Part shown: positions 2,556 to 18,725 of the stretch, piece by piece | Position numbering within the stretch: the first letter of the stretch is position 1 | How the letters are laid out: each line of letters begins with the position of its first letter | IMG/VR virus record: IMGVR_UViG_3300027142_000035 | Location: 1-30,586 of that record | DNA: 30,586 nt | Source of the DNA: a virus | Strand: one strand, 5' to 3' | The notes under the pieces: generated by a model | The model's input: the letters and a program-made list of their open reading frames with translations, nothing else | Told to the model about the DNA's origin: nothing | The model's database searches: none | Position numbers and translations under genes: made by a program

Positions 2556-3312
2556 GTTCATTGATCTATTAGTGAATGCCTCGTATTATGGGCATCTTCT
2601 CAATGTTTATGGCGCTGTAGGTTTTAAGAAAATAAATGTTACTCCAGCACAACAGCAAGAACTATGTAGGCTTCTAGGTGATTTTGTTAATTGGATACCG
2701 AATTCCAAACATCCGACTCCAACAGTTGAACAGTACATCCAAACTTTTGAATTAGAACTCCAAAGTAAAAAGCCTAGACAAAAATTCTTGACAGAATTAA
2801 GCATGGACATAACAAGCCAGCCACCACCCGTCGGTTCAATCCTGAACAACACTGTTTTTCAGTGCAGTAAAAAATCGGGATCAACAGTCCTTATTGATAT
2901 GAGAAAAGTGTTTAGCCTCCTCAGGGAAGAGTGGCAAGATTTTATTAGTAAAATTGCTTGGCTTGATTCGGAAACAGGGATTTCGCGTCTGATGGTTGAA
3001 AAACATAGGAGCACTAATCAAAAGATACTAATATTTTCTACAGAATTTGCATTAGAATTAGAACAAGATTCAAGGTATAGATTTTTCTCAGACGGTGAAG
3101 AAATTAATCAGGAACAGAAAAAAATATTAAAAGAAATATTTGAAGAAATACTTGACATTATCCATATATGCAATCTGAACATCCTAGAAGAATGGAAATG
3201 GGACGAAAAAGACTTACTGATAATTGATGACAGTTGCATGATGCAAGCAACAAAAGGTGGATTCAAGTATGGCTCACGAATAATGATCCACCAAAAATGT
3301 TCGGCTAACTAG
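2524..3312 (+). CDS. TauD/TfdA-like dioxygenase homologue with degenerate metal site
   Basis: A 262-residue protein that aligns by pattern with the TauD/TfdA branch of 2OG dioxygenases, not the P4H branch. ELSMDITSQPPPVGSIL (residues 91-107) corresponds to the WHTDxSxxxxPPxGSxL segment, SGSTVLIDM to GGDTLFADM, and LLIIDDSCMMQA (231-242) to LLIWDNRRVLHRA. At the metal-binding positions the H-x-D has become S93-x-D95 and the distal His has become Q241; R252 (GSRIMIH) is kept. Loss of both His ligands predicts no normal Fe(II)-dependent chemistry, so it may be a pseudoenzyme or binding partner. The ATG at 2524 lies inside the previous gene (32-base overlap). The 3' end overlaps the convergent gene at 3305 by 8 bases. 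The family is fairly clear; the function is not. Confidence 0.72.
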   Translation: MFSCPTFKKVEFIDLLVNASYYGHLLNVYGAVGFKKINVTPAQQQELCRLLGDFVNWIPNSKHPTPTVEQYIQTFELELQSKKPRQKFLTELSMDITSQPPPVGSILNNTVFQCSKKSGSTVLIDMRKVFSLLREEWQDFISKIAWLDSETGISRLMVEKHRSTNQKILIFSTEFALELEQDSRYRFFSDGEEINQEQKKILKEIFEEILDIIHICNLNILEEWKWDEKDLLIIDDSCMMQATKGGFKYGSRIMIHQKCSAN

Positions 3313-4084
3313 TTATATCACCAACATAAACTTGTTTCTGATAGGAATATCCGACATCTTCGCGGAGTTTTTTCATCCAAGAGTATTGTGCATCCATTGA
3401 AGTTGATTGCGAATTGATATCAAGATGGGAAGTCAAACCATGAGCGAACCAAGACAGGTAAGCGAACCTGACACCACTCTCTAATGGTGCAACAGAATGA
3501 CACCCAATAAAAGAAGATGGGTAGATGAGGATGCTTCCTTTTGGGGGCTTTATATTTATTCCCCAAGGCGCAAAACCTATTTCTCCTCCTTCGTAATCAT
3601 CGTTTAATACGAGGCTAGAAGTAAGCGTATTGTGAATAGGGAATCTATTTACCTCAACAAAACTGTTCGGCTCATACGCAATGGCGCAGTCAGAATGCGA
3701 TCCAATATACATACCTTTGTGATACTCAATAAAATACCCACGAGTTCTCCAAGTAACCGTTTCCATCACAACAGGAAAAGATTTACAATATTCAACAAGG
3801 CATTTGTAGATTGAGTCCTCCAATAATTGTACAAAGGCTCTATCGTCATCCGAAATTCCTTGATACAGAGTGTTGGTATGGCGAATCGGTAGAGAAGAAA
3901 GATGGTCGTCTTGGAATTCGTACCCACCATTGTTTTTGACTGTTTCCTCATCTTTTGCAATACCGTAGACAGTCGGAGGGGAGTTATCGTACATTCGCTT
4001 CATAAAAGAAACAAAGAACTCAGAGTCCACATTGACAGCATCTTCAAAAAGAATTATTCCGCTACCCAGATGTCTGGCTTTCAT
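3305..4084 (-). CDS. 2OG-Fe(II) oxygenase, P4H-like, 'LGGG' subfamily (oxygenase 3)
   Basis: A 259-residue protein at the distal end of the long - strand run. The N-terminus RHLGSGIILFEDAVNVD is the subfamily signature in slightly altered form (LGSG). WRTRGYFIEYHKGMYIGSH leads into the metal motif H130-x-D132. NDDYEGGEIGF follows, then the distal H196 and R206 (CHSVAPLESGVRF). All the residues needed for Fe(II) and 2OG binding are present. Its ATG at 4084 shares one base with the stop of the upstream gene (TAATG), so translation is probably coupled. It converges with the TauD-like gene, sharing 8 bases at the two stop codons with no terminator between. The substrate is unknown. Confidence 0.9.
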   Translation of the reverse strand: MKARHLGSGIILFEDAVNVDSEFFVSFMKRMYDNSPPTVYGIAKDEETVKNNGGYEFQDDHLSSLPIRHTNTLYQGISDDDRAFVQLLEDSIYKCLVEYCKSFPVVMETVTWRTRGYFIEYHKGMYIGSHSDCAIAYEPNSFVEVNRFPIHNTLTSSLVLNDDYEGGEIGFAPWGINIKPPKGSILIYPSSFIGCHSVAPLESGVRFAYLSWFAHGLTSHLDINSQSTSMDAQYSWMKKLREDVGYSYQKQVYVGDITS

Positions 4085-4971
4085 TAGTTCATTCGCTCTG
4101 TCAAAGTAAAACCAAGATGTTCTGTATCTTTGACATTGGCAGTCAAATAGTTGCGGAAGTCTCTCCTTAGATTTGGCATGTACACGTTTGTTGATCGTTG
4201 CGCCTCTTCGGGGTCAGTTGTAGGGTCAACAATTGTTTCGTTGAGGTCAGGGTTTGGTGACCCATGTGAATACCAGCCAAGGTAACTGTAACGAGTTCCG
4301 CCAGTAACTGGTTTCACTTCGTGTGAGGCAATAAAGTTTGAAGGGAACATCAGAATGTCTCCCTTGCGAGGAGAGTAAGTTATTCCGAGATAGTCAAAAA
4401 CATGTTCTCCTCCACTGAATGCATCCTCTCCAACTTGATCTATACCGACGCAATCGTTGACATACATAACTACTGAAAGAGTATTTTTTGTTGGTAACTG
4501 CTCTTTAGGGTGGTCTATCCCGTATAGATAGTCCACACTTGAATCAGAGTGTGTCCCCAAGAATAATCCACCCTTTTGTGTTGAGTAAGAAACAATATGC
4601 CCCTTAACCTTCCACCAAATATTCTTGTATGCGAGCGGATGAATGGTCATATAGCCAAGCAAACAATTATCTCGGGCAGATTCTAAAAAATTCAATAGTT
4701 CAATTACTTCAGGTCGCTTATCTTGATGAGTGTTGGCTGCCCGCCGTGGCATCATATCAACACCATCTTTTCTGAAAATATACCCACTTCGGTTTATGTA
4801 ACAGGGTTCGCCTGTTTCAGGGTTTATCCCTTCTGTGTACATAGATTCACGTTCAGAAGCAACGAATTCTTCAAATAGATCGCGCGTTGAGCCCCAATCT
4901 ACCGTGAAGGCGTTTTTGAAGAGTATTACTCCACCACCCAATTCCTCTGGCTCTATCCCGTTGAATTTCAT
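4084..4971 (-). CDS. 2OG-Fe(II) oxygenase, P4H-like, 'LGGG' subfamily (oxygenase 4)
   Basis: A 295-residue protein. The N-terminus EELGGGVILFKNAFTVD is nearly the same as in oxygenases 2 and 5. WWKVKGHIVSYS and LFLGTH lead into H141-x-D143 (HSDSSVDY), then an insertion, YVNDC...FSGGEHVFDYLG, and the distal H217 with R227 (HEVKPVTGGTRYSYLGW). The catalytic set is complete. The C-terminal ~55 residues (STNVYMPNLRRDFRNYL) resemble in style the C-terminal tails of the sister proteins. The ATG at 4971 follows the stop of the gene at 4972 with no gap. Expected to hydroxylate a protein or peptide side chain; the target cannot be read from sequence. Confidence 0.9.
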   Translation of the reverse strand: MKFNGIEPEELGGGVILFKNAFTVDWGSTRDLFEEFVASERESMYTEGINPETGEPCYINRSGYIFRKDGVDMMPRRAANTHQDKRPEVIELLNFLESARDNCLLGYMTIHPLAYKNIWWKVKGHIVSYSTQKGGLFLGTHSDSSVDYLYGIDHPKEQLPTKNTLSVVMYVNDCVGIDQVGEDAFSGGEHVFDYLGITYSPRKGDILMFPSNFIASHEVKPVTGGTRYSYLGWYSHGSPNPDLNETIVDPTTDPEEAQRSTNVYMPNLRRDFRNYLTANVKDTEHLGFTLTERMN

Positions 4972-5832
4972 TTAAATGTGGTCTTTCGCTCTGCTTTTGA
5001 ATAGTGTGAGTTTCTCTGGAACCCCATTAGGGTACTTGCGATAAATATAGTCTTCATAATCGTCAATGAGAGTTTCAAGCCACCACTGACCACCAGAATG
5101 GTATTCGCCGTCAGACACAATAGGGTTAACCCCATGTTCAGGTGCTGGTGTGCCCTGAGCGAACCACAAAAGATATGAATACCTTGAACCCTTGGTTATT
5201 TCATGTATCTCATGGGCTCCAAGATAGTTTGCTGGCATCAAAACGATAGAGCCCGTATGAGGGACAATGTCAATATCAAAGTAAGGAATACTCATGTGAC
5301 CACCGCTGAATCCATATTCACATTGACTTCCGTCATCGGTGCACGAATTGAAATAAACAAGCGCAGAAACAACGTTCCGAGTCGCATGATCAAGTTGAGG
5401 AATAGCGCCATACCTGTAATTCACATCATTATCAGAATGAAAGCCAAGGCTGGCACCCTCGTCGTAGCAAAGAACATGACCACCAGATTTCCACCACAAA
5501 CACTGCAAAATCGCAGGGAACATCTCTATATATTCAAGAAGTGCTTCGTAAACACGATCATCACATTCTTTAAAGAATGGGTGAGTTAGGTTTTGAATTC
5601 TTACTGGTGAACGCTTGTATGCGTCAAGACCATAAATAAACCCACCCTTATTGATGGTGTGCAAGGGTTCACCGTTATCGTCATAGACAATAGTGAAATT
5701 CTCTTGACGCCACTTTTCTTTTTCCTGTTCAAGATATGAAATCAAGTCACCCTGTGGGACGGTTATCGCATTCTCAAAAAGAACAGTTCCGCCACCAAGA
5801 TGTCTTGGCTGAAGCGGATTTTTTTCATTCAC
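4972..5832 (-). CDS. 2OG-Fe(II) oxygenase, P4H-like, 'LGGG' subfamily (oxygenase 5)
   Basis: A protein of about 286 residues. No ATG fits the start. I chose the GTG at 5832 because an AGAGG ribosome binding site lies a few bases upstream; a TTG one codon earlier is possible. The N-terminus RHLGGGTVLFENAITVP, then WWKSGGHVLCYDEGASLGFH and the metal pair H132-x-D134 (HSDNDVNYRYG), YFNSC...FSGGHMSIPY, H207 and R217 (HEIHEITKGSRYSYLLWF), mark it as a close paralogue of oxygenases 2 to 4. GGH replaces the usual GGE in the core strand. It overlaps the peroxidase-like gene upstream by 8 bases and abuts the next gene directly. The C-terminal extension contains a YDDYEDYIYRKYP-type tyrosine-rich segment like that of oxygenase 2. 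Confidence 0.88.
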   Translation of the reverse strand: MNEKNPLQPRHLGGGTVLFENAITVPQGDLISYLEQEKEKWRQENFTIVYDDNGEPLHTINKGGFIYGLDAYKRSPVRIQNLTHPFFKECDDRVYEALLEYIEMFPAILQCLWWKSGGHVLCYDEGASLGFHSDNDVNYRYGAIPQLDHATRNVVSALVYFNSCTDDGSQCEYGFSGGHMSIPYFDIDIVPHTGSIVLMPANYLGAHEIHEITKGSRYSYLLWFAQGTPAPEHGVNPIVSDGEYHSGGQWWLETLIDDYEDYIYRKYPNGVPEKLTLFKSRAKDHI

Positions 5833-6442
5833 CAAAAACCTCTTTCAATGCTTCCAAAATAGTCTCCGTGCTTTGATCTGTCAGCCTCTCCGCGGCAAGA
5901 GGGAACTCACCCCAACTGAATCTGCGAATAACCCTACCAGAAGAATCAACTAGAAATTTTTCATAGTTATGAGGGACACGATGAAGAGCCTGATTCGCAA
6001 GATTATGACCATGTGACGCTTCAGCAGAGTTGTCCGCTCTGGTATCACTAGAAATTCTTTTTGCTGTTCCTTTTAGAAATGAAAATAAAGGATGCTCGTT
6101 CTCTCCGTTGACTTCAACTTTTTCTGTGATTGGAAAAGTTACCCAAGGGTACGCCTCTTTTACAAATGAGGATATTTCTTCGCTTGTTGCTGGATCCTGT
6201 GATCCGAATTGATTGCATGGAACACCGACTACCGAAAAATCCTCGTACATATCGTTGATTGTTTGCAATTCCCATAACTGCCGCGCGGTTCTCGTGTATG
6301 ACCATATTGCACTTATTTTAGGTAAGTACTTTGTTTTAGTTGCAATATTGACTATCATGCATGTCTTCCCGCGAATACTGGATAGCACATCATCTGTTCC
6401 ACCATCAGCAGAGCCAATTTTTATATCAAAAACAGAGTTCAT
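5825..6442 (-). CDS. Glutathione peroxidase-like protein lacking the catalytic Cys/Sec
   Basis: A 205-residue protein with the thioredoxin-like fold pattern of glutathione peroxidases: IVNIATK, GVPCNQFGSQDP, TFPITEKVEVNGENEHPLF and HNYEKFLVDSSG align with NVASKCG, GFPCNQFGxQEP, FPxFxKxxVNGxxxHPL and WNFEKFLVDxxG. The peroxidatic Cys/Sec is Thr here (T37, in NIATKTKYL), and the tetrad Trp is His (H158), while the Gln (Q82) and Asn (N159) remain. About ten extra residues follow the altered active-site loop. Cys remain at 28 and 76. It may be a non-peroxidase member, a chaperone-like thioredoxin fold, or use C76 differently. I start it at the ATG at 6442, which overlaps the upstream stop as ATGA; a TTG 12 bases earlier is less likely. 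It sits between oxygenases in the same run. Confidence 0.8.
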   Translation of the reverse strand: MNSVFDIKIGSADGGTDDVLSSIRGKTCMIVNIATKTKYLPKISAIWSYTRTARQLWELQTINDMYEDFSVVGVPCNQFGSQDPATSEEISSFVKEAYPWVTFPITEKVEVNGENEHPLFSFLKGTAKRISSDTRADNSAEASHGHNLANQALHRVPHNYEKFLVDSSGRVIRRFSWGEFPLAAERLTDQSTETILEALKEVFGE

Positions 6443-7032
6443 TGTAGACACCAAAACTGTGTCATAAAAAATCTGACACCAGATTCAACAGGTGTCACAT
6501 AGTGAGTGTAGATTTCCGAAGAAGGAAACAAAGCAAGCATTCCCCGTTTTGGCGAAACGCTTACGCCAAGATTGGGAAAATTTAATACCCCACCAGTAAA
6601 TCCACTATTCAGATATAAAACAGAACTCACGTCTCTACTTTCATATCCTGCGGGTGTAGGGAGATCAGGTTTTAGACCGTCATAATGAGGCTTCAACATC
6701 TCACCTTCTTGGTATCCGCAAAAATCATAGCGATTTTCCAATCCGACCTTGCGCCCCCAGATCAGTTCAATATGTTCATGAATTTTGTTAACAATGGGGT
6801 TGAAAAATTCGTCCATTTGACCATTATTCGCAATTACCAAAGATGGCTGTTTGTATTCATCACCATTATCATCTTTTGTTGACGAGTAAAAATTGACCCC
6901 ATCGTCCGTCAGTTCAGTTAAAACTTTCTTTGGATGTGCGATCAGCCTTTGTTCAATAATCTCTGCTGTTTCAACATCAATGAAATCGTCCAGAATGTGG
7001 ATTCCGCCAGTTGTTGGATGGTCAATGATCAT
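6439..7032 (-). CDS. 2OG-Fe(II) oxygenase, P4H-like, compact form (oxygenase 6)
   Basis: A 197-residue protein and the shortest oxygenase of the island, close to a minimal P4H-like catalytic domain. The N-terminus GIHILDDFIDVETAEIIEQ is the usual start of such domains. The metal motif is H116-x-D118 (KPHYDG), followed by YLNSGFTGGVLNFPNLG, KRGMLALFPSS, distal H177 and R187 (HYVTPVESGVRFF). GGV replaces GGE in the core strand, as in many members. The ATG at 7032 overlaps the stop of the upstream gene as ATGA, and its own stop overlaps the next start in the same way, so it is part of a translationally coupled chain. The substrate is unknown. Confidence 0.9.
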   Translation of the reverse strand: MIIDHPTTGGIHILDDFIDVETAEIIEQRLIAHPKKVLTELTDDGVNFYSSTKDDNGDEYKQPSLVIANNGQMDEFFNPIVNKIHEHIELIWGRKVGLENRYDFCGYQEGEMLKPHYDGLKPDLPTPAGYESRDVSSVLYLNSGFTGGVLNFPNLGVSVSPKRGMLALFPSSEIYTHYVTPVESGVRFFMTQFWCLQ

Positions 7033-7997
7033 ACTGAAATAACTCCCTTGACATTAAGCGTAGAGTAATCGTTGATCTTCATATAACCGCTCACATTCCC
7101 ATTATCTTCAACAAGGTTAAGGGAAACTTTAGCAATCATCGGTGTGGAGACCTGATATTCGGAATAGAAACAACCTTCACTAAGGGAGTATGTGATATCC
7201 GTTGAATACTTACCTTGCTCAATTTTTGCCTTTGAGTCTGTATCAAAAACTATAGATATGTTTTCGTTACCTAAAGGTGTTAAAACGGTCAAGCGGTACG
7301 ACTTCCCAAATAATGGAGAACCAGTTTCGTAGTGGAAACCATTATTGAACAAACCTTGTGGAGGGCATTCTTTACTCCAAACATTAACAATCAACGACTG
7401 TTTAACCCCAGAAGGCGCTGGTGTCGTTCCATGAAGTTGATGACCTGCATCAAATATGATTAAGCGATTACTCTTATATTTGATTCTTTCACGAGTTTCT
7501 ATTGGGCTATTTTTCAAAATCGGATCAATGAAACTTTTCTCCAAAGAACCGACTGAATCACGAACCAATAAGATTGGATAAAGTTCAAAAAAACCTGCTT
7601 CTTCTCCGTTATCCACTCCCCACCAAACAGCACCGAGAGTTGGTGTTCCTAAAGATTTATCGTGAACGTAGCGAGCAGTGTCGGCATCAATATGTGGTTG
7701 TATGTACTGACCCGGCTCATATGTTCTTGTCCAATACTCAAATCCGACCACTTCATCAATGTTTATTTTTCCCTCAAATATCTTTCGGATCAATTTCTTT
7801 TTGAGGGTATCCATTGGGCTTTTCCACCAACCATCCCAAAACATGTATGGAGAAAAAACCGAACCATTAGGGTCGTTGTACATATTCGGCACAGATGCGA
7901 CCTTCTCCCCATCACCCATGGATACAGGGAAAAATGAGTCATCATCAAATATTGCGCTCAGGGTTACTTCGTCAAAATAGTTGTCTTGAATAATCAT
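7029..7997 (-). CDS. 2OG-Fe(II) oxygenase with C-terminal beta-rich domain (oxygenase 7)
   Basis: A 322-residue protein from the ATG at 7997, which has the best ribosome binding site of the run (AAGGAG, placed over the last codons of the upstream gene). Residues 1-210 carry a 2OG/Fe(II) core: YEPGQYIQPHIDAD gives H102-x-D104, and LIIFDAGHQLHGTTPAPSGVK gives H189 with K199 ten residues on; H186 is an alternative ligand. Lysine instead of Arg as the 2OG anchor is typical of true prolyl-4-hydroxylases. The core strand is FFELYP instead of GGELYFP, so it is divergent. Residues ~215-322 form a separate beta-rich region (SYRLTVLTPLGNENISIVFD...) with no recognised family, perhaps a binding module. 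Confidence 0.82.
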   Translation of the reverse strand: MIIQDNYFDEVTLSAIFDDDSFFPVSMGDGEKVASVPNMYNDPNGSVFSPYMFWDGWWKSPMDTLKKKLIRKIFEGKINIDEVVGFEYWTRTYEPGQYIQPHIDADTARYVHDKSLGTPTLGAVWWGVDNGEEAGFFELYPILLVRDSVGSLEKSFIDPILKNSPIETRERIKYKSNRLIIFDAGHQLHGTTPAPSGVKQSLIVNVWSKECPPQGLFNNGFHYETGSPLFGKSYRLTVLTPLGNENISIVFDTDSKAKIEQGKYSTDITYSLSEGCFYSEYQVSTPMIAKVSLNLVEDNGNVSGYMKINDYSTLNVKGVISV

Positions 7998-7998
7998 A

Positions 7999-8748
7999 TT
8001 ACTCCTTAACAACTATTGTAAGTCCATAAAACAAAGGTATATGGTAGACATTACAGAAACTATTGTGTTTTAGTTCATGATGCCATTCCCACGCAGGACT
8101 TACTATCGTTTTATTGTGATACAGAAATGAGGAGTCCGAACTGTTTTGGATCAGCATCACCCCACCAGAATTGAGCCTGTCAACATAAGTTGATGCACCC
8201 AAAAACGGATTCTCCATATCCGATGACCAACCAAGAATCAAGTCATATTTAGTGTCTTCATCCAAATCTAATTCCTGTCGTGTCACCATTTTATACGGCA
8301 CATTTGGAAGAATATTTGAAGTCCCTTTAGCGAATCGTTCATAATACAAAAGTCTCTTTGAGTTAAGTATTGAAAGTTCTGCACCATACTTATTCACGAG
8401 CGTGTCATACTTGAATCTGTCCAAATATCCTGAAATTGACAGAACTGTATTCATTCTTTTCACATCAAAAATTGCAAAAACTAGTGCTAAAGAAAGCCAC
8501 TGCGGACTTGAGTATCCTTTATGAAGTTTGGCGTGAGGCTGATGAATTACGTAATCAAAATCACTAGCCCCACCAGTAGCGATATTGCGACGATCAACGC
8601 CAACGGTATTGAACATATACTCGCCAATTAAAACAGACTGTGCGCAATCTTCATCTATGCATTGGTCGGCAAAATCAGAAAGCGGTACGTCTGTAAAACT
8701 GCTCAAATCAAACAGTTGATCTAACTCGTATCTTTTGTTATCAGACAT
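7999..8748 (-). CDS. Possible SAM-dependent methyltransferase-like (Rossmann) protein
   Basis: A 249-residue protein. The in-frame ATG at 8748 is chosen over an upstream TTG; it overlaps the preceding gene by 8 bases. Residues 99-112 (MNTVLSISGYLDRF), 168-181 (YDLILGWSSDMENP) and 192-203 (LNSGGVMLIQNS) have the order and spacing of motif I, an acidic strand and the post-III strand of class I methyltransferases. The glycine-rich loop (GxGxG) is poorly kept, so cofactor binding is uncertain. A segment rich in His and Gly (YVIHQPHAKLHKGYSS, 66-81) precedes the putative fold. It could methylate a protein or sugar, or be a related nucleotide-binding fold without activity. It is the only non-oxygenase enzyme-like gene between oxygenase 7 and the small-gene block. 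Confidence 0.45.
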   Translation of the reverse strand: MSDNKRYELDQLFDLSSFTDVPLSDFADQCIDEDCAQSVLIGEYMFNTVGVDRRNIATGGASDFDYVIHQPHAKLHKGYSSPQWLSLALVFAIFDVKRMNTVLSISGYLDRFKYDTLVNKYGAELSILNSKRLLYYERFAKGTSNILPNVPYKMVTRQELDLDEDTKYDLILGWSSDMENPFLGASTYVDRLNSGGVMLIQNSSDSSFLYHNKTIVSPAWEWHHELKHNSFCNVYHIPLFYGLTIVVKE

Positions 8749-9443: not shown

Positions 9444-10163
9444 CTAGTTCATCGGTTCATTCAGTTTTGGCAACCCCTGAAATGACGGTCCGATCTTATT
9501 CCCGTCGGCATCCAAACCAGTTTTTATCCCTTTTGTCCAAGTCCATGGTTTTTCTTGGTTATTTTTTGATTTCATGGCACCATACTTGGATCGTTGTTCA
9601 ACAAGTTCTTTGTCATCCCACAGGCTTGACACTTCAAAAGAAGTTTCAGAAAGCACCCTATTGTCAAATAGGGTAAAAAACATGAATGGCATACCAGCCT
9701 CAAACACGACTGGTTCACCAATTCTGGTGATCATCCAGTTCATTTGGAACTCATCCGGCCACCAAGAACTTGGAATGATTGCAGATAGTGGTTTAGCACC
9801 ATCAACCATATAGTTTGGCGACCCACCAATCCAAATGTCGTAGTTTTCTTCTGTGCGAAAAGCGTATTGTGTTGAAAAGGAGATCATGCCAATAATGCTT
9901 GAATGAACAATGAGTTTGTGTGCGCCAAGCGCAGTCTGTATCTTTTCACCAGAGATGATGGTTGGTGGCACATTGCCTCCATTCCACTCAACGACCACAT
10001 CCTGCTCTAGTTGCAATTCCCACCCATAAACATTCGCATAGGTCATTGGTAGGCATTGGTAAGCATGCTTGTTATAGGTGTTGTCCATCCACTCCCGTTT
10101 GAGCCGAGACTGAACTATTTTGGGCGTAGTTGTCTGTGTTTTCAGTAATTGTATTTTTGACAT
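9444..10163 (-). CDS. DUF6065-like protein
   Basis: A 239-residue protein with the pattern I associate with DUF6065: CLPMTYANVYGWEL (37-50), VVEWNGG (57-63), WIGGSPNYMVDGAKPL (111-126) and WWPDEFQMNWMITR (134-147), then a GEPVVFEAGMPFMF strand. The function of the family is unknown. The fold looks beta-rich, with many aromatic residues that could form a ligand pocket. The last ~45 residues are hydrophilic and probably unstructured. The ATG at 10163 shares one base with the TAA of oxygenase 8 (TAATG), so translation is likely coupled. I recall such proteins occurring near 2OG oxygenases in other phages, which would point to a shared pathway, but that is not verified here. Confidence 0.75.
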   Translation of the reverse strand: MSKIQLLKTQTTTPKIVQSRLKREWMDNTYNKHAYQCLPMTYANVYGWELQLEQDVVVEWNGGNVPPTIISGEKIQTALGAHKLIVHSSIIGMISFSTQYAFRTEENYDIWIGGSPNYMVDGAKPLSAIIPSSWWPDEFQMNWMITRIGEPVVFEAGMPFMFFTLFDNRVLSETSFEVSSLWDDKELVEQRSKYGAMKSKNNQEKPWTWTKGIKTGLDADGNKIGPSFQGLPKLNEPMN

Positions 10164-10822
10164 TAATAATTTTTTTCTTGACTGTAACTTGCTTGACGGG
10201 TTAGGTCATGGTTGTTGTCGTTGTAATCAAACATTGTCACAGCAGAGTACTTCGTCCCTGAAAGAACTGGCTTAGCCGCATGGGCATATATGTATGTTGA
10301 TGGGAAAAGAACAATATCTCCGTATTCGGGCTTGAAGGACAAATCCAAATAGGGGAACCATAATTCCCCACCCTCGTAGTCATCATTCAAATACATACAT
10401 GATGAAGTAGTGCATGTATAAGAAAAACCATGATCTGTATGGACTTGAAAGTGTTGATTCGTTCCATACCTAATGTAGTTAATCGCCTCCATGTAGGCGA
10501 GATTAATGTTGTAGCGCTTCTCGTAGTCCGCGATGCACTCTTTCAGCGGGTTTTTAGTGTCATTGTAAATGTTTATCAATTCAGAGAATTGGGGAGGGCA
10601 GTGTTTGATATGGAGTTCACCCATCTTGCAATCAACGCAATCTCTGTACTCGGGCATTTTTTGGTTATAACCAACTAGCGCATCCATCCACATGTATGGC
10701 GGTGTCTTGCTTTCCCCAATTGTTTCTTCAAGACGATCTACAAGTCTTAACGACTTTGGTAAGGCGTTTTGATATAACAGGATCCCTAGACGTGGGTCAC
10801 TTAAATGAACAGGATTTTTCAT
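10163..10822 (-). CDS. 2OG-Fe(II) oxygenase, P4H-like with Lys 2OG anchor (oxygenase 8)
   Basis: A 219-residue protein with a clean P4H-like core: QHFQVHTDHGFSY gives H128-x-D130, then YLNDDYEGGELWFPYLDL, KPEYGDIVLFPS, distal H181 and K191 (HAAKPVLSGTKYSAV). Lysine at the 2OG C5-carboxylate position, where most neighbours have Arg, is the state found in collagen-type prolyl-4-hydroxylases, so of all members this looks most like a classical peptidyl-proline hydroxylase. The N-terminal part has a Cys pair (C62, C65 in DCVDC) and C75. The ATG at 10822 lies 4 bases after the stop of oxygenase 9. Confidence 0.92.
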   Translation of the reverse strand: MKNPVHLSDPRLGILLYQNALPKSLRLVDRLEETIGESKTPPYMWMDALVGYNQKMPEYRDCVDCKMGELHIKHCPPQFSELINIYNDTKNPLKECIADYEKRYNINLAYMEAINYIRYGTNQHFQVHTDHGFSYTCTTSSCMYLNDDYEGGELWFPYLDLSFKPEYGDIVLFPSTYIYAHAAKPVLSGTKYSAVTMFDYNDNNHDLTRQASYSQEKNY

Positions 10823-10826
10823 ATGC

Positions 10827-11474
10827 TCAGTCTACCTCCCATACTTGTTGCCATGAGTATCTTTCGCCAGAAGTAACACTGGTCACTTCATGACATGAAT
10901 TCTCGTCGGCAATGTTATTAAGTAAAACCATCGTATTGGCAAGTGGCTTCAGCGTGATACCGAGAAACGGAGCATGGAATTCGCCCCCTTCAAAATCATC
11001 ATTTATGTAGTAAACCGTAGAAAATGAAGCAGATACATAATCTGTTCCTATGCTCTTTTCATAAGTATCAGAGTGCATGCGCAGACCGCGCCCATCTGAA
11101 TACTTCAATAAAAAGTTATTGTATATTCCCCTAGGATGAATATCAAATGTTGACATAATAGCCTTCATTGACAAAATCTCAATTTTAAGAATAACTTTTT
11201 TTATTTGTTCATCAATCGGTTTATTGCGAAAATATGACCAGTCCATGACCGTGGGTGGGTAATCAAGATCGGTGTTATCTGTTTGAGATGGAACGTATGG
11301 TCTGAGATAAGAAACAGATGCGTCACCGCTGTGTGCAACATGTTTGAACCGCACAGCAGAAAGTTCGTCCGTTGAGGGCTGAAAATCTACGCCGCTTTTA
11401 ACATATTCAAGTAGCAACTTATGATCGTCGGCGTTTAAGAAATCTTTAAAAACATGAAAATTAGTGTTTGGCAT
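10827..11474 (-). CDS. 2OG-Fe(II) oxygenase, P4H-like (oxygenase 9; paralogue of 10)
   Basis: A 215-residue protein. I begin it at the ATG at 11474, 4 bases after the upstream stop; extending to 11564 would overlap the upstream gene by more than 80 bases and add an unrelated N-terminus. HVFKDFLNADDHKLLLEYV opens the domain. RGLRMHSDTYEK gives H134-x-D136, then YYINDDFEGGEFHAPFLG, and H195 with R205 (CHEVTSVTSGERYSW). All catalytic residues are present. VRFKHVAHSGDASVSYLRPYV matches RFHTVKHSKDESIEYLRSEV in oxygenase 10, showing a gene duplication. The substrate is unknown; the pair could act on related sites. Confidence 0.9.
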   Translation of the reverse strand: MPNTNFHVFKDFLNADDHKLLLEYVKSGVDFQPSTDELSAVRFKHVAHSGDASVSYLRPYVPSQTDNTDLDYPPTVMDWSYFRNKPIDEQIKKVILKIEILSMKAIMSTFDIHPRGIYNNFLLKYSDGRGLRMHSDTYEKSIGTDYVSASFSTVYYINDDFEGGEFHAPFLGITLKPLANTMVLLNNIADENSCHEVTSVTSGERYSWQQVWEVD

Positions 11475-11478
11475 TGAA

Positions 11479-12225
11479 TTAACTTTCGTCCAAAAGCCAA
11501 AAATGTTGGCGAACATAGCGCACACCTTTTGTGACGCTATTGACGCGATGAGCCATATCCTCATCCCATGGCGTGCAATTTAGGATTAGGGAATTTGGTT
11601 TTGGCTTAAAACTTAGCCCAATATACGGAGTGCAATGCTCTCCACCCTCATAGTCATCATTTAGGTAATAGATTGAAGCAAAATGGCATGGACGATGCGC
11701 AGTTGGTGAACTCTCATTAAAATCATAGCCATCTGTGTGCATTCTCATTGAGCGACTGTTTTCAATTTTTGTGAATACTGGCGGAAAAGTATTTTGTGCT
11801 TTTTGCCCAAACAAAGAAAAAATTTGTTCATTTATTTGAGAATCAAGTTTTGTGATTATGTCTAAGATCTTTTGTTCAATAGGTTGATGTAAGACCAGAT
11901 TCCAGTCTTCATAGTTTTCCAAGCCCTCGGGGAAAGGTTCCGCCATCTGCCCACTTTTTATTTTTTCAAAAGTTTCATCATCAAAAACTTCTGAACGCAA
12001 ATATTCAATAGATTCATCTTTGCTGTGCTTTACTGTATGAAATCTTGTCGCTGTAGGAGGTCTTTTATCCATTGATTCAGTGAATCCCCAAGTAAGTGGA
12101 TCCGTATTTCTTACATACCAATCCAATGTTGACCATGAATCGCCATCTAGAAAATCTTGATAAATAGAAATACTCGGGTATACGCTTTTCGGCGGGTTGG
12201 ACGGAGTCGGCATAGTTTTAAACAT
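11479..12225 (-). CDS. 2OG-Fe(II) oxygenase, P4H-like (oxygenase 10; paralogue of 9)
   Basis: A 248-residue protein using the ATG at 12225, one base after the upstream stop; the ATG at 12234 is an equally in-frame alternative that overlaps the upstream gene by 8 bases. The core is MRMHTDGYDF with H163-x-D165, YYLNDDYEGGEHCTPYIGL, KPKPNSLILN, and H226 with R236 (AHRVNSVTKGVRYV). It is 33 residues longer than its paralogue at 10827, mainly through an acidic insertion near residues 80-105 (VFDDETFEKIKSGQMAEPFP). The shared N-terminal segment, HSK/HSG-D-x-S and YLR elements tie it to oxygenase 9. The catalytic set is complete; the substrate is unknown. Confidence 0.9.
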   Translation of the reverse strand: MFKTMPTPSNPPKSVYPSISIYQDFLDGDSWSTLDWYVRNTDPLTWGFTESMDKRPPTATRFHTVKHSKDESIEYLRSEVFDDETFEKIKSGQMAEPFPEGLENYEDWNLVLHQPIEQKILDIITKLDSQINEQIFSLFGQKAQNTFPPVFTKIENSRSMRMHTDGYDFNESSPTAHRPCHFASIYYLNDDYEGGEHCTPYIGLSFKPKPNSLILNCTPWDEDMAHRVNSVTKGVRYVRQHFWLLDES

Positions 12226-12226
12226 G

Positions 12227-12874
12227 TCACTCATCCACAACGGTATAGAAAGCAGGAGTCGTATATCTTTCTCCACTAATCACTGGTTTAACCCCGTGCA
12301 TGTAATAGAAGTCTCCGGGGTGAAGTACTGCTAAACCCGGTTTGGGTTTTACGATGATGTCGTGCTGTGGGTAGTAAAGTTCCCCACCTTCAAAGTCGTC
12401 GTTGTAATAAAAAAGCGAATTTATGTCATATGTTGGGAACGGATTTGGGGATCCATCGTTTAATTGTTTATCGGCGTGGGGTTGTTGCTCTATCCCTCCA
12501 AACCAACGGATCAGGCATGGCGGACGGGAACTTAATTTTACATGAAAAATATCTTCCATGGTTTTAGCCATTTTGGCTATGTAGTGATCAATTAGATCGT
12601 AGATACCCGAATCAAGGCGCTTTAGTATCGTCGCCGTGCATTGACGGTCATTCCAATAGGACGCATCATAGGTGCAGACACCCTCTTCGTTGTAGGTGTT
12701 TTCTAGTTGATCGTTATGCCACTCTTTGATGTTTCGCGCAAAACCAATGATTTTTTTGACATCGTCAGAATCAATGAAGTTTTCTATGACATGAATGTTT
12801 TCTTTGCCTCGCCCAAAAGCGCCGGGTTTTACAGCCCAAGGACCATCATCAAAGTTGTGTTGTGTTTGTTCCAC
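12227..12874 (-). CDS. 2OG-Fe(II) oxygenase, P4H-like (oxygenase 11), first gene after the repeat protein
   Basis: A 215-residue protein starting at a GTG at 12874, with AGGA seven bases upstream as ribosome binding site; no ATG fits. IHVIENFIDSDDVKKIIGF starts the domain. QPHADKQ gives H133-x-D135, YYNDDFEGGELYYPQHDIIV is the core strand, and H193 with R203 (HGVKPVISGERYTT) completes the set. It is similar in size and motif context to oxygenase 1 (HADxE/Q, GGELY[FY]P, HGVK) although that gene is on the other strand. It is the first oxygenase downstream of the FN3/PP[YF]F repeat gene, 31 bases away. A short hairpin (12883-12896) lies just upstream and may affect its expression. Confidence 0.91.
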   Translation of the reverse strand: MEQTQHNFDDGPWAVKPGAFGRGKENIHVIENFIDSDDVKKIIGFARNIKEWHNDQLENTYNEEGVCTYDASYWNDRQCTATILKRLDSGIYDLIDHYIAKMAKTMEDIFHVKLSSRPPCLIRWFGGIEQQPHADKQLNDGSPNPFPTYDINSLFYYNDDFEGGELYYPQHDIIVKPKPGLAVLHPGDFYYMHGVKPVISGERYTTPAFYTVVDE

Positions 12875-12905: not shown

Positions 12906-13442
12906 TTATTTGAATGCTGGTGGGAAGAACGGAGGGAAAAATGGTGGGAAAAATGGCGGGAAGAATGGTGGGAAGAATGGTGGGAAAAATGGTGGGAAGA
13001 ACGGTGGGAAGAACGGAGGGAAGTATGGAGGGAAGTATGGCGGAAAAAACGGCGGAAAGAACGGCGGGAAATAAGGTGGGAAATAAGGTGGGAAATAAGG
13101 TGGGAAATAAGGTGGCGTTACTGCTGCGCTCGCTGCTGAAGCAGGACTAACAGGACCGCTACTGCTCGTAGCAGTCACAGTAAACGTATAAGCAGTATTT
13201 GATGTTAAACCAGTGACAGTCAAAGGTGAAGATGCACCCGTTGCAACATGACCACCGCTTGATGTTACCGTGTAGGAAGAAATAGTACCAGTTTTTCCAA
13301 GGTAGGCAGGAGCAGTGAACGGAACAGTAACGGTTTGCGCGGTATTACCTGCCGTATTGTTGACAACAGCATTTACGGTTGGCGTACCAACTGTCGGTGC
13401 TGCTGGTTGTTTACCGCCAGAATCTTTTCCTTTTGTTGCCAT
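12906..13442 (-). CDS. FN3-domain protein with C-terminal PP[YF]F repeat tail
   Basis: A 178-residue protein (ATG at 13442, one base after the fibre gene's stop). Residues ~17-108 look like a fibronectin type III domain (PFTAPAYLGKTGTISSYTV, then SPLTVTGLTSNTAYTFTVTA and SSSGPVSPASAASAAV), a module common on virion surfaces. From residue 110 to the end there are 16 units of PP[YF]F, then PPAFK: four PPYF, two PPFF, two PPYF, eight PPFF. Alternating Pro-Pro and aromatic pairs would favour an extended polyproline-type rod with an aromatic face. No signal peptide. It lies last in the tail-fibre cluster and directly before the oxygenase run, which makes it the prime candidate substrate. It may be an adhesin tip or decoration protein. 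The - strand frame is preferred over the complementary NGGK frame because it has a start coupled to the fibre gene and an FN3 domain. Confidence 0.85.
   Translation of the reverse strand: MATKGKDSGGKQPAAPTVGTPTVNAVVNNTAGNTAQTVTVPFTAPAYLGKTGTISSYTVTSSGGHVATGASSPLTVTGLTSNTAYTFTVTATSSSGPVSPASAASAAVTPPYFPPYFPPYFPPYFPPFFPPFFPPYFPPYFPPFFPPFFPPFFPPFFPPFFPPFFPPFFPPFFPPAFK
12909..13115 (-). repeat. Array of 12-base PP[YF]F-coding repeats
   Basis: About 17 tandem 12-base units without spacers. The four units at 13068-13115 are identical in DNA (CCACCTTATTTC on the - strand), while the others vary at wobble positions but keep the protein pattern. This suggests recent expansion at one end and purifying selection over the rest. 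The G-rich + strand has regularly spaced GGG runs. Confidence 0.9.
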
Positions 13443-13443
13443 A

Positions 13444-16038
13444 TTATGCGCTCAAGTCTCCAACGACTACCCATGTATTTTCTGCCCGTTTGATGAGTGT
13501 AACATACGACCACTGTGCGCGGAGTTTAAGACCCGGTGTTCCGTTTACCGTCACACCCGCACCAGCAGTGACGGTGCATTGACCAGTGTTTGTTTGCAAA
13601 ACGTTTATTTGACTTCCAATAGGGAAGGCGACAGATGAGTTTGGCGGTACGGTGAGCGTGTTCGCTGTAGCGACACTCATTTCAACAACCTTGTTTTTGT
13701 CAGCCAATACAAGGGTGTATGAGGCGGTCTGTGCGCTTGTTGAAACATCTGCAATCATCCCGAGTGAAACGGTTCCAGAATCTGCCGTGGTTACTATATT
13801 CCCGTATGTCGTGCCGTCGTTTGTGGCTTCCCACTTATCAGTAGTTTCGTTCCAGCGGACAAGAACATTTGCCGAGGTTCCACGCTCTACTTCAATACCA
13901 GCATTCTCAGTCGGAGTACCTGTCACATCATTATTCAAAATAACAATGTTGTCGGAGACATTTAATGTTGCCGTATTGATTGATGTGGTTGTTCCAGAAA
14001 CAGTTAGATTGCCACTCACCGTTAGGTCGTTGAATGTGACATTGCTACCAGTTCCGACAGCCTGACCGATTGCAATGGTCGGAGTTGCGGTTTCTCCAGA
14101 GTTGTTGGTAAGGGTTACACCAGTACCAGCAACGAGTGACGCAACGTAATCTCCAGTTGTTTTGGTGCCAAGAGCCACCGCGTCATTAGCAACCTTAGAT
14201 GCAGTTACTGCACCATCTGCAATTTTTCCAGTACTTACTGCGCTATCCGCAATTTTTGCTTCAGTGACTGCTGAACCACCAATTTCGTTTGTGCCAACAG
14301 AATCATCAGCCATCATTGACTGCGAAATTGTGTTTGCGGGAAGCGTTACAGTTCCCGTGAAAGTTGGTGAAGAAAGAGTTGCGTACGGAGTGAAATCTGA
14401 TGTCAAAGCAACAGTTCCCGTTGCATCAGGAAAAGTTACTGTTCGGTCAGCAGTTGGATTACCAGCGTTGAGAACCAATTCAAACTCGTCCGAGGTGTTC
14501 CCCTCCATTGTGATTCCACCTGTTAGATACAGGTTTGCGAAAGAAACATTGTCGCCAGTTCCTACTGATTGACCGATTGATAAAGTGTGGGCTGTGCTTT
14601 CACCGCTGGTTGCCGCAGATGAAGTAACACCAGTACCGCCAGTAATAGAAGCGACATAGTCACCTGTAGTTTGTGTTCCAAGTGCAATAGATGCTTCAGC
14701 CGTAGTTGATGCCGTGACACGACCATAAGCATCCGTGGTTACAGAGGTCATGAAAGTGCTTGTTGCAGAACCACTAGAGTTTGTTCGTGCCAATTCTGCA
14801 AGGTCAATACTGTCAGCGTTAATGACGATGCGCGTAGATGATGCAGTACCAATGCTCAGGTCAGAGTTGCTAGCGGCAAGACCATTACCAGCGATGATTT
14901 GGAATCCAAGACCCGTAAATTGCTGGAATGTGATGTTGTCTGTCCCAATGATATGAGCGCCATTGGTTCCTGAACCAGTTGACGAAATAGCAAAACTTTG
15001 ATAGCGGTTTACTGCTGAAGAGTTACTTAGTGAACCAACTTCAACACCCTCATCTTTAGTGATCTGTTGGGCGACAGATCCGTCCATGTCTGTTGCGCGA
15101 GTCAAAACCCAAGTTGCACTTACTGAACCTTGAGCAGTAACAACATAAACACCGTTTTGTTTTTGATCTACTTGATTCTTGATCAGGACACGCTGTCCTG
15201 TGGAGGCATTTTCTCCATCAATTACTAGACGACCGTTTGAAGTCGCGGTAAGAGTTGCACCAATACCTGTTCCGCCGTCTGCGTCAGTTGTTCCAGCAGA
15301 GTATGTAGGTGTCTGTGGAAGCACAGCATGCGTTGCGAGAACAACACTCTTATGCCAATGCTCTTCGGCAAGGCGGTTTTCAAGTTCTAGTTCGGTAACG
15401 ATAGGGGAATAAGTTGATCCGTTAACAGTCAATTCCCAAACATCGGTGGTTTCATTCCAACGGAGTTGAACATTTGTTGACGATCCGCGCTCAACTTCAA
15501 TACCAGCATTCTCGGAAGGTGCGCCAGAAGCATTGTTGTTCAAAACAATGATGTTGTCATTTACAGTCAATGTTTCTGTGTTTAAAGTGGTGGTTGTTCC
15601 AGAAACTGTAAGGTTTCCTGAAACCGTAAGATCATTAAAGGTAACATTGCTATCCGTGGCAACTGCCTGACCGATAGCAATTGTTGGTGTTGCGGTCTCG
15701 CCAGAGTTGTTTGAAAGAGATACGCCTGTCCCCGCAACAAGCGAAGCAACATATCCGCCAGCGGTGTCTGTGCCAAGATCAATGGTGTCGTTAACCCACG
15801 CAGATCCATTCCATTTCAGGAATTGACCGCTAGAAGCACTCGTAATAGTTACATCGCCAACTTCATCAAGCGATGGAGGCGCATAATAACCAAGGGAGTT
15901 CCAAGCAGTAGACCCGTTTCCGAGTTTCATCTTTAGCGTGTCAGTTTCAATACCTACTTCGCCACCAGAAAGCGTAGGGTTGGCAGATGTCCAGTTTGTT
16001 GCTGTGTCTCGTCGCAGTATGATCTTTTTGTACGCCAT
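13444..16038 (-). CDS. Large tail fibre protein with MTD-like N-terminus
   Basis: An 864-residue protein; its ATG at 16038 shares one base with the stop of the small gene upstream. Residues ~1-50 (KIILRRDTATNWTSANPTLS, GEVGIETD, KMKLGNGSTAWNSLGYY) match the N-terminal fold of the major tropism determinant and of many phage fibres. The rest is low-complexity beta-rich fibre: two copies of a ~130-residue module (86-216 and 621-757), a KNQVDQKQNGVYVV module (about 270-375), SSPTFTGTV and short KIADGAV-type repeats. Residues ~768-864 form a compact C-terminal domain ending in WVVVGDLSA, also found in the fibre at 16290. Likely a trimeric side or tail fibre that binds the host surface. No reverse transcriptase or template repeat accompanies it here. 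Confidence 0.88.
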   Translation of the reverse strand: MAYKKIILRRDTATNWTSANPTLSGGEVGIETDTLKMKLGNGSTAWNSLGYYAPPSLDEVGDVTITSASSGQFLKWNGSAWVNDTIDLGTDTAGGYVASLVAGTGVSLSNNSGETATPTIAIGQAVATDSNVTFNDLTVSGNLTVSGTTTTLNTETLTVNDNIIVLNNNASGAPSENAGIEVERGSSTNVQLRWNETTDVWELTVNGSTYSPIVTELELENRLAEEHWHKSVVLATHAVLPQTPTYSAGTTDADGGTGIGATLTATSNGRLVIDGENASTGQRVLIKNQVDQKQNGVYVVTAQGSVSATWVLTRATDMDGSVAQQITKDEGVEVGSLSNSSAVNRYQSFAISSTGSGTNGAHIIGTDNITFQQFTGLGFQIIAGNGLAASNSDLSIGTASSTRIVINADSIDLAELARTNSSGSATSTFMTSVTTDAYGRVTASTTAEASIALGTQTTGDYVASITGGTGVTSSAATSGESTAHTLSIGQSVGTGDNVSFANLYLTGGITMEGNTSDEFELVLNAGNPTADRTVTFPDATGTVALTSDFTPYATLSSPTFTGTVTLPANTISQSMMADDSVGTNEIGGSAVTEAKIADSAVSTGKIADGAVTASKVANDAVALGTKTTGDYVASLVAGTGVTLTNNSGETATPTIAIGQAVGTGSNVTFNDLTVSGNLTVSGTTTSINTATLNVSDNIVILNNDVTGTPTENAGIEVERGTSANVLVRWNETTDKWEATNDGTTYGNIVTTADSGTVSLGMIADVSTSAQTASYTLVLADKNKVVEMSVATANTLTVPPNSSVAFPIGSQINVLQTNTGQCTVTAGAGVTVNGTPGLKLRAQWSYVTLIKRAENTWVVVGDLSA
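13768..14178 (-). repeat. Fibre module, copy B
   Basis: Encodes residues 621-757 of the fibre: VALGTKTTGDYVASLVAGTG, NVTFNDLTVSGNLTVSGTTT, ENAGIEVERG and RWNETTDKWEATNDG. Nearly the same protein sequence is encoded at 17535-17945, and a more diverged copy at 15391-15783, so it is a mobile fibre module within this genome. Confidence 0.85.
15391..15783 (-). repeat. Fibre module, copy A (diverged)
   Basis: Encodes residues 86-216 of the same fibre, with NVTFNDLTVSGNLTVSGTTT and ENAGIEVERG in common with the other two copies but differing elsewhere (SSTNVQLRWNETTDVWELTV). It is the older or faster-evolving copy of the three. Confidence 0.82.
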
Positions 16039-16289: not shown

Positions 16290-18725
16290 TTATGTTAGGT
16301 CTCCAGATAGCAAAAATGTGTTTGATGCTACACAGGTGACTGTTATGAGTGAATATCGTGCTCTGGTCGTCACAGAGTTACCCGGCGAGACCATGGAAGC
16401 CGCGCCAGACACAGTGACAGAAACCTGTCCAGTACCATATTGAACAATGTCAACCTTTTCTCCGATATTGGCACTCCATGAACCAAGATCCACGCTTGTC
16501 GCAGAGGAACTGTTGAATTTGAGCAATTTACCGCTATCAGCATTCAACACCGAATAGGTGGTAGCGGAACTATCGGAGACAGTTTGTCGTGGAGCAGAGT
16601 TAACCCAGTATCCACTAACACCATCAAATCTCAAAATCTGGTTAGTGAGCAGATCGCCATCTATTGATACATCTAGCAATTCAGACAAATCAAAGAAAAT
16701 CGGGTCTTCGCTAGTTACTTGAACCCATGCACCACTGTAGTAAATGTAAAGATTAAGACCAGTGCTGTCGTACCAGAAGTCTCCTGCACCAACATCAACA
16801 GATGGTGCGGTATCGGAAACCGTCATGCCACCAAAGTTGGCTAATGCGGTCTGAATGAACTCTGTGGTGGCAACCGCTGTGGTGTTGTTTCCTAGGGTTT
16901 GAGTAACTGCCGTCGTTCCTGTTGGTAGTGACGGGGTTCCAGTGAAAGTTGGTGACGCAAGTGGTGCCTTAAGGTCTAAAGCAGTCTGCGTTGCTGTGGA
17001 AATGGGCTTATTGGCATCCGATGTGTTGTTAACATTTCCAAGACCAACCATCGTTGGGCTGATACCGCTTACAGTTCCCGTGAAGGTCGGCGAATTCAGT
17101 GGAGCCTTGGCGTCCAACTGTGTCTGAATCGCCGATGTTACTCCGTCAACATAATTGAGTTCAGTTGTTGTGAGAGTTGCGCCATCAAGGATGTTAATTT
17201 CGGCGGCAGTTGAAGTTACGCCAGTAAGATCCGTTGGTGCGATAGAGATATTCGCGGAGCCATTAAATGACTGACCAGCAATGTTGCGTGCTGTGGCAAG
17301 AGTTGTGGCAGTAGATGCATTCCCTGTCAAAGCCGCACTGATTGTTCCAGCAGTAAAGTTGCCAGATGCATCACGAGCGACAATTGCGTTAGCCGTATTT
17401 GCGTCAGTTGCCGTGGTAGCAGAGTTGGACACTTTTCCTGCGCTTGAAATGGTTCCAAGTTTTGTGTCATCAATCGCGGCTGAAGCATTAATGTCTCCAT
17501 TGACGATTGTTCCGTCAGCGATCATCGTGCTGGTGACCGTGCCCGAATCAGCACTTGTGACGATATTGCCGTAGACAGATCCGTCGTTTGTTGCTTCCCA
17601 CTTATCGTTTGTTTCGTTCCAACGTACAGACACATTGGCGGAAGTTCCGCGCTCAACTTCAATACCCGCGTTCTCTGTAGGTGAACCAGTAACATTATTG
17701 TTAAGAACAACGATGTTGTCATCAACGGTAAGAGTTTCGGTATTAATTGATGTGGTCGTACCAGAAACTGTTAGGTTTCCACTTACTGTCAAGTCATTGA
17801 AGGTGACATTGCTGTTTGTGGCTACAGCCTGACCGATTGCAATGGTTGGAGTTGCCGTTTCTCCAGAGTTATTAGTGAGGGTTACACCAGTTCCTGCAAC
17901 AAGCGAGGCAACATAATCACCAGTGGTCTTTGTCCCAAGAGCCACGGTGTTGTCGGGAATTGTTACCGTTCCAGTGAATGTCGGCGAATTGCTTGGAGCC
18001 TTGGTGTCAATCTGTGTTTGAATGGCAGAGGTTACGCCATCTACATAGTTGAGTTCTGTTGTTGAAAGAGTGGCACCATCAAGAATGTTTAACTCTGTAG
18101 CAGATGCCGTAAGGATAACATCCTCATTGATTTTTGGAGATGACAGCGTTTTATTGGTTAGGGTTTGAGTTGTATCCGTGCCGACAAGGGTGGTCGTTGC
18201 ATCAGGAATGGTGATAGTTCTGTCCGCCGTTGGGTCGGTTACGGAAAGAGTTGTCTCAAACTCATTGGCAGTTGCACCTTCAAAAACAATGTTCCCATTT
18301 AGGTTTAGGTTGGCAAATGTTGGGCTTGCCGAAGACGCGACATCTTGTCCGATAGCGATGGTTGGCGATGCACCTTCTCCAGAGTTATTGGTTACCGTAA
18401 CACCAGTACCCGCAACAAGAGATTCAACATAAGAACCAACTGTGTCGGTTGACAGGTTTACTGCATCGTTAATCCATGCAGATCCGTTCCATCGCAAAAA
18501 ATCACCGTTAGTTGCGCTGGTGATCGTGACATCAGAAAGCGCATCAAGCGAAGCAACAGAAAGGTTGGCATTGGCGTAAGAAAGACTTGTCCAAGCAGTT
18601 GAGCCGTTACCAATCTTGAATTTAGCGGTATCGGTTTCGTAACCAAACTCGCCGTTATCAAGCGTCGGGTTAAGGGACGTCCATGCAGAAGCGGTAGTTC
18701 TTTTAAGTTGAATTTTTACGCTCAT
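16290..18725 (-). CDS. Large tail fibre protein with MTD-like N-terminus (paralogue)
   Basis: An 811-residue protein; its ATG at 18725 overlaps the upstream stop as ATGA. The N-terminus (VKIQLKRTTASAWTSLNPTL, GEFGYETDTAKFKIGNGSTA) is the same fold as in the fibre at 13444. Residues 261-397 repeat the shared module almost word for word. Two copies of an ELNYVDGVTSAIQTQ[IL]D, [TA]KAP[SL]NSPTFTGTV element occur near 223-254 and further on, plus typical GNASTATTLATARNIAG fibre text. A segment DFWYDSTGLNLYIYYSGAWV is shared in style with the protein at 18722. The last ~95 residues form a compact beta domain ending LLSGDLT. Expected to form a trimeric fibre; receptor unknown. Confidence 0.88.
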   Translation of the reverse strand: MSVKIQLKRTTASAWTSLNPTLDNGEFGYETDTAKFKIGNGSTAWTSLSYANANLSVASLDALSDVTITSATNGDFLRWNGSAWINDAVNLSTDTVGSYVESLVAGTGVTVTNNSGEGASPTIAIGQDVASSASPTFANLNLNGNIVFEGATANEFETTLSVTDPTADRTITIPDATTTLVGTDTTQTLTNKTLSSPKINEDVILTASATELNILDGATLSTTELNYVDGVTSAIQTQIDTKAPSNSPTFTGTVTIPDNTVALGTKTTGDYVASLVAGTGVTLTNNSGETATPTIAIGQAVATNSNVTFNDLTVSGNLTVSGTTTSINTETLTVDDNIVVLNNNVTGSPTENAGIEVERGTSANVSVRWNETNDKWEATNDGSVYGNIVTSADSGTVTSTMIADGTIVNGDINASAAIDDTKLGTISSAGKVSNSATTATDANTANAIVARDASGNFTAGTISAALTGNASTATTLATARNIAGQSFNGSANISIAPTDLTGVTSTAAEINILDGATLTTTELNYVDGVTSAIQTQLDAKAPLNSPTFTGTVSGISPTMVGLGNVNNTSDANKPISTATQTALDLKAPLASPTFTGTPSLPTGTTAVTQTLGNNTTAVATTEFIQTALANFGGMTVSDTAPSVDVGAGDFWYDSTGLNLYIYYSGAWVQVTSEDPIFFDLSELLDVSIDGDLLTNQILRFDGVSGYWVNSAPRQTVSDSSATTYSVLNADSGKLLKFNSSSATSVDLGSWSANIGEKVDIVQYGTGQVSVTVSGAASMVSPGNSVTTRARYSLITVTCVASNTFLLSGDLT
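17535..17945 (-). repeat. Fibre module, copy C
   Basis: Encodes residues 261-397 of the second large fibre and is nearly the same at protein level as copy B at 13768-14178, including the RWNETNDKWEATNDG and GNIVTSADSGTV ends. It is a likely site of recombination between the two fibre genes. Confidence 0.85.

Follow-up and report, generated by a model that had tools for sequence, protein, structure and literature searches.

The window analysed in the present study is a 30,586-nucleotide stretch of viral DNA (positions 1 to 30,586 of IMG/VR virus record IMGVR_UViG_3300027142_000035). One of its genes encodes a small protein that ends in a highly regular run of Pro-Pro units, and genes for prolyl-hydroxylase-like enzymes lie beside it. 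The locus raises the question of whether this repeat is a genuine, maintained protein feature, and whether the neighbouring enzymes act on it.

Structure of the array gene

The array gene (12906..13442, minus strand) starts with ATG and encodes 178 amino acids. A fibronectin type III (FN3) domain was found at residues 32-99 (13146..13349, minus strand; PF00041, E 3.5e-6), with 27.6 bits against a gathering cut-off of 25, and this part formed beta strands in the AlphaFold2 model. It was followed by 16 PP[YF]F units at residues 110-173 (12924..13115, minus strand), 6 PPYF and 10 PPFF in the Tyr/Phe order YYYYFFYYFFFFFFFF, and then by a C-terminal PPAFK (12909..12923, minus strand), which consists of a PPAF unit and the last Lys. 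Translation and the PF00041 match confirmed the preliminary description of an FN3 protein with a C-terminal run of 16 PP[YF]F units and one PPAF unit. No other tandem repeat in the window was as strong as the array, whose period is 12 nucleotides. Its first four units (13068..13115, minus strand) were identical in DNA (CCACCTTATTTC x4), and the remaining variation between units was limited to third codon positions or Tyr/Phe swaps. The same description had noted four identical end units; their identity held, but they lie at the N-terminal end of the array, not at the C-terminal end.

A collagen-like identity of the array was considered and ruled out, as the period is 4 and Gly is absent, whereas collagen has Gly at every third residue (Gly-X-Y); the repeat had rightly been called unlike collagen. 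The protein itself had no PHROG match, and the array peptide had no match among solved structures. In the AlphaFold2 model, the array showed a pLDDT of about 52 and no secondary structure. The model thus speaks neither for nor against the rigid rod suggested in the preliminary description; a rod of polyproline-II type is assumed here by analogy with other proline-rich peptides.

Selection on the array

An array with a 12-bp tandem period and four identical units might be a repeat at the DNA level without protein function, or an artefact of assembly. To judge this reading, we compared the gene with its relatives. An identical gene was present in three independent contigs (L140-L142), which spoke against an assembly artefact. 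Other relatives had 17 units (YYYFFYYFFFFFFFFFF + PPVFK) or 18 units (YYYYFFYYYFFFFFFFFF + PPRFK), so that the comparison of repeat number proposed earlier gave 16, 17 and 18 units. Orthologues with 17 units differed from each other by 21-45 silent changes in 72 codons, without a single replacement, and two 18-unit arrays differed by 13 silent and 0 replacement changes. The Tyr/Phe order was kept among orthologous arrays of equal length. Thus, the peptide and its Tyr/Phe order were maintained while the DNA was thoroughly rewritten. The codon evidence, together with the identical genes and the at least 146 distinct array ORFs described below, ruled out the DNA-level and artefact reading, whose probability we consider negligible.

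Judged from these codon patterns, the array reading frame is evidently translated, and the lack of translation that would have spoken against the preliminary description did not apply. The arrays are old and under strong purifying selection that includes the Tyr/Phe order, and the copy number alters, but slowly. The recent copy-number change that had been proposed therefore stands only in part: the number does vary, but among arrays that are old and strongly constrained.

Distribution of arrays in other genomes

The viral metagenome search for (PP[YF]F)n that had been suggested yielded at least 146 distinct array ORFs in the gathered loci, nearly all from phage contigs. A three-unit DNA pattern matched viral contigs in at least 120 places; counts from the large pattern scans are lower bounds, with at least 120 matches listed in each. 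Among the 146 array ORFs, the residues between Pro runs were FF (1571), YF (403), HF (58) and WF (7), and position 4 of the unit was almost always Phe. The N-terminal parts of the proteins consisted of FN3 repeats, PASTA-like domains (PF03793, E 0.005, below the cut-off), tail-fibre domains or long tail-like proteins. Some arrays were internal in long tail proteins, part of them without an oxygenase nearby. The array-bearing contigs reached 206 kb.

The search of 84,980 bacterial and archaeal genomes returned 11 matching contigs, all of them metagenome-assembled. A cellular origin of the arrays was rejected; several of the 11 matches were in other frames or unrelated by eye, and about four of the loci look like binned phage. 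The same arrays were seen on MAG contigs of Verrucomicrobiales, Gammaproteobacteria and Chitinophagaceae (L131, L134, L138 and L139), which are probably binned phage. Since psbA was absent from 24 phage contigs (22 with arrays; many are fragments), cyanobacterial hosts found no support.

Neighbourhood of the array gene in the window

The array ATG directly follows the stop of a tail-fibre gene on the same strand (13444..16038, minus strand), which carries an Mtd_N domain (PF18454, E 2.4e-13) and matches a PHROG tail fibre family and phrog_21510. A second tail-fibre gene with an Mtd_N domain (16290..18725, minus strand) was recognised by domain and PHROG matches. In the array protein of L106, the repeat stands behind a phrog_21510/phrog_18179 domain; phrog_21510 is also matched by the window's tail fibre, which lends some support to a tail location of the array.

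Downstream, the array gene adjoins the 2OG-Fe(II) oxygenase at 12227..12874 (minus strand; PF13640; H133, D135, H193, R203), hereafter the partner oxygenase. Further oxygenases on the minus strand were found at 11479..12276 (phrog_61, E 2.8e-13; HxD...H...R motif), 10827..11564 (PF13640, E 2.1e-8; motif), 10163..10822 (PF13640, E 1e-11; bacterial prolyl 4-hydroxylases first in a phmmer search of the PDB), 6439..7032 (PF13640, E 1.2e-12; motif), 4972..5835 (PF13640, E 3.9e-8; motif), 4084..4971 (PF13640, E 4.8e-11; motif) and 3305..4084 (PF13640, E 1.7e-7; motif), together with a divergent member at 7029..8012 (PF13640, E 0.003, below the cut-off, and 9.9e-6 in another scan). Two more lie on the plus strand, at 1494..2555 (PF13640, E 5.5e-8) and 806..1507 (PF13640, E 1.2e-5; motif). 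In all, ten PF13640 matches fell between 1241 and 12487, in addition to 11479..12276, which was recognised through phrog_61, and the HxD...H...R/K motif was kept in the catalytic region of nine window ORFs. A TauD-type oxygenase, a glutathione peroxidase (5825-6454, minus strand; PF00255, E 6e-22) and a DUF6065 protein (9444..10163, minus strand; PF19541, E 8e-47) are interspersed in this battery. The glutathione peroxidase perhaps gives protection from peroxide formed by uncoupled oxygenase turnover.

At 1..252 (plus strand), the window edge cuts a second array gene, of which the C-terminal part (PFFPPFFPPYFPPCF + Cys-rich cap) remains. The gene is complete in the sibling contig G058 (L264 5124-5783) and encodes FN3, about 12 units and the cap. 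Two convergent array genes, each beside a tail-fibre-like gene, therefore enclose the oxygenase battery.

Identity of the partner oxygenase

The partner oxygenase belongs to the 2OG-Fe(II) superfamily, as indicated by the PF13640 match, the HxD...H triad and the distal Arg/Lys. The iron and 2OG ligands H133, D135, H193 and R203 were invariant in an alignment of 29 partner oxygenases. A profile of the partner family gave prolyl 3-hydroxylase 1, a Bacillus prolyl 4-hydroxylase and the lysyl hydroxylase LH3 as its first matches. The AlphaFold2 model of 12227..12874 (mean pLDDT 91.5) was closest to the viral collagen prolyl hydroxylase of PBCV-1, followed by P3H1, P4H and PHD2; the TM-scores of these matches were moderate (about 0.5-0.67), and the rmsd was high for several. 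By predicted structure and by profile, the closest relatives of this enzyme thus appear to be prolyl hydroxylases of the P4H/P3H/PHD type.

Linkage between arrays and oxygenases

We examined the linkage from both sides. On the array side, PF13640 genes were present on 46 of the 50 contigs found by their array. In 17 contigs, 70% of the PF13640 genes lay within 10 kb of an array, compared with a mean of 32% under random placement; none of 20,000 trials reached the observed clustering, and the median nearest distance was 1.1 kb. A 2OG oxygenase was located within 4 kb downstream of 40 of the 50 testable arrays, often less than 100 bp away and on the same strand, whereas the same was true of only 4 of 43 collagen-like (GPX)n control arrays (Fisher p 3e-12) and of 7 of 725 other ORFs in the collagen-like loci. 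Of 49 testable arrays, about 10 had no oxygenase within this 4-kb distance; most of these belonged to long tail proteins or had the enzyme slightly farther off. On the enzyme side, we examined 80 viral loci that encode relatives of the partner oxygenase, 57-100% identical to it; an array was present in 72 of them, and several of the eight loci without one were truncated near the oxygenase gene. The association held for carriers with FN3 and with PASTA-like domains, and in either relative orientation. The linkage counts are not independent, because the arrays are related by descent; when the N-terminal parts were clustered at 60% identity, 14 of the 20 clusters showed linkage. These results demonstrated a specific linkage of the array to these oxygenases. 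The recurrent pairing in many uncultured phages suggests that phages chemically modify repeat tails, and the earlier hint at hydroxylation is thereby backed, at the level of gene order, by a strong linkage to prolyl-hydroxylase-like enzymes.

As a separate observation, the proportion of collagen-like phage arrays with a downstream oxygenase exceeded that of the other ORFs in the same loci, and a minority of these collagen-like arrays may also be hydroxylated.

The raw number of oxygenases was dropped as evidence, as cyanophages without arrays have as many; only the linkage and the specific oxygenase family were used. With three array proteins as queries, tblastn gave no match among isolate phages, but its low-complexity filter masks the array, and this result does not indicate absence. 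Isolates were instead reached through oxygenase matches and then searched for the pattern. No two-unit PP[FY]F was found in the 15 phage or marine-virus isolate and single-cell records chosen in this way by tblastn, and 13 of them, scanned for PF13640, had 2-13 genes each. These cyanophage enzymes bear on another explanation, in which arrays and oxygenases hitch-hike together in a shared hot spot of the tail region and the enzymes act on something else, be it the large tail fibres, a host protein (EF-Tu, for example), glycans or the level of 2-oxoglutarate. The excess of oxygenases (about ten) over array genes (two) would fit this explanation, as would the many such enzymes that cyanophages carry without PP[FY]F arrays, the 2OG-lowering role proposed for them (PMC3037559) and the solved bacterial P4H that acts on EF-Tu (5v7y, by title). 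We consider it unlikely nonetheless, given that a single oxygenase family is tied to the arrays across varied carriers and in both orientations, that collagen-like phage arrays are less linked, and that arrays of other composition keep the linkage.

The last point came from two related contigs without PP[YF]F, G051 and G057, in which the second array gene has a homologue with (PPVT)n or (PPSF)n as its repeat. In G051 and G057, these genes adjoin a tail-fibre-like gene and have oxygenases downstream. In a scan for these two repeats, an oxygenase lay within 4 kb downstream of 5 of 5 PPSF arrays and 18 of 37 PPVT arrays, and the oxygenase-linked arrays of both kinds mostly end in Cys-rich caps. 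Across lineages, the constant feature is Pro-Pro, as expected for a prolyl-hydroxylase substrate, and the aromatic residues are not essential to the system, as (PPSF)n or (PPVT)n can stand in the same place.

This substitution also bears on a simpler reading, in which the array goes unmodified: as a hydrophobic proline-aromatic spacer or sticky tip, it would attach to the cell envelope, particle or membrane by hydrophobic contact, and the neighbouring chemistry would be irrelevant. The selected identity and order of Tyr and Phe, with Phe almost always at position 4, would mean that the bare side chains matter, and the reading also fits the arrays inside long tail proteins, part of which lack a neighbouring oxygenase. 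The reading leaves unexplained both the oxygenase linkage and the retention of PP when FF becomes SF or VT, and we regard it as very unlikely.

Proposed function of the array protein

We consider it probable that the protein is an appendage of the tail and that the enzymes encoded next to it hydroxylate its Pro-Pro repeats, giving a modified adhesive spacer or tip. The protein would be a small accessory of the phage tail or fibre. Its FN3 domain would dock it beside the tail fibres, leaving the C-terminal (PP[YF]F)n stretch to project from the particle. During infection, the adjacent prolyl-hydroxylase-like oxygenases would hydroxylate prolines of the Pro-Pro pairs and possibly some aromatic residues too. 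The product would be a modified, probably extended, polyproline-II-like adhesive spacer or tip that is more soluble and more hydrogen-bonding. The data establish the gene, its selection and recurrence, its linkage to the oxygenases and the fold class of the enzyme; the substrate, the modified residue, the location and exposure in the virion and the adhesive or other biological role are inferred.

Some of the oxygenases may act elsewhere, because about ten exceed the seeming need of one simple repeat. Alternatively, the paralogous oxygenases might each modify a different atom or residue (Pro C3, Pro C4, the Tyr/Phe ring or the beta-carbon), producing a tunable tail adhesive that resembles mussel glue or extensin, with the pattern encoded by the Tyr/Phe order, the repeat number and the end cap. 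This elaborate version of the hydroxylated appendage seems quite unlikely.

Comparison with known systems

Extensins, which are hydroxyproline-rich cell-wall proteins, and mussel adhesive proteins contain short Pro-rich repeats with Tyr that are hydroxylated post-translationally, and they serve structural or adhesive functions. They differ from the array in using the eukaryotic secretory pathway, and the likeness is one of description. Collagen and its prolyl 3-/4- and lysyl hydroxylases likewise combine a periodic Pro-rich protein with 2OG-Fe(II) enzymes of the same fold, but the Gly-X-Y period of 3 contrasts with the aromatic-rich period of 4.

Among viral enzymes, the PBCV-1 prolyl 4-hydroxylase (vCPH, 5c5t) is also a small single-domain enzyme encoded by a virus, and it was the best fold match. 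In contrast to the present system, PBCV-1 is a virus of eukaryotic algae, the identity to the partner oxygenase is about 17%, and no tandem enzyme battery was reported in the literature found. PMC7019647 describes this enzyme as having an unknown role in replication and reports no hydroxyproline in PBCV-1 virions, a result that counts against the hydroxylation proposed here. The 2OG-Fe(II) oxygenases of T4-like cyanophages (phrog_61) belong to the same superfamily and occur in many copies per genome, but in the genomes examined they were spread over the genome, and the 15 records searched had no two-unit PP[FY]F. They have been tied to 2OG and nitrogen signalling (PMC3037559) and structurally resemble human EGLN3 (PMC12774648). 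In Baltic viruses, few auxiliary genes are as frequent as P4H, whose use has been called cryptic (PMC9301287).

In the searched literature, which covered few subscription journals and preprints, we found no link between phage P4H-like enzymes and a (PPxx)n protein, and the string FFPPFFPP occurred in no paper. With its very regular Pro-Pro repeat and its linkage to such enzymes, the array protein offers them a concrete candidate substrate, and the substrate question therefore becomes testable. If the proposal is true, hydroxyproline chemistry would be built into phage particles, and the locus would offer a new self-contained repeat-plus-enzyme cassette for biomaterials.

Chain ends of the arrays

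Of the 146 array ORFs, 58 finished with a PPxFK-type terminus and 25 with a Cys-rich cap; 3 had a Hint-like domain, as assigned by a crude rule, and the remainder ended otherwise. PPxx array proteins running into an intein/Hint-like domain were seen at L083 8066-9304, L111 5882-6847 and L106 3560-6478, and also in L371, L397 and L403. Several of them end in ...HNK, and their Pfam matches were below the cut-off; the Hint-like part possibly cleaves itself, so that the end of the array is released or capped. Variable Cys-rich, knottin-like caps that differ from phage to phage stood behind the arrays of L125, L128, L031, L105, L269 (16672-17388) and L271 (13273-13983), and these caps are candidate receptor-binding tips.
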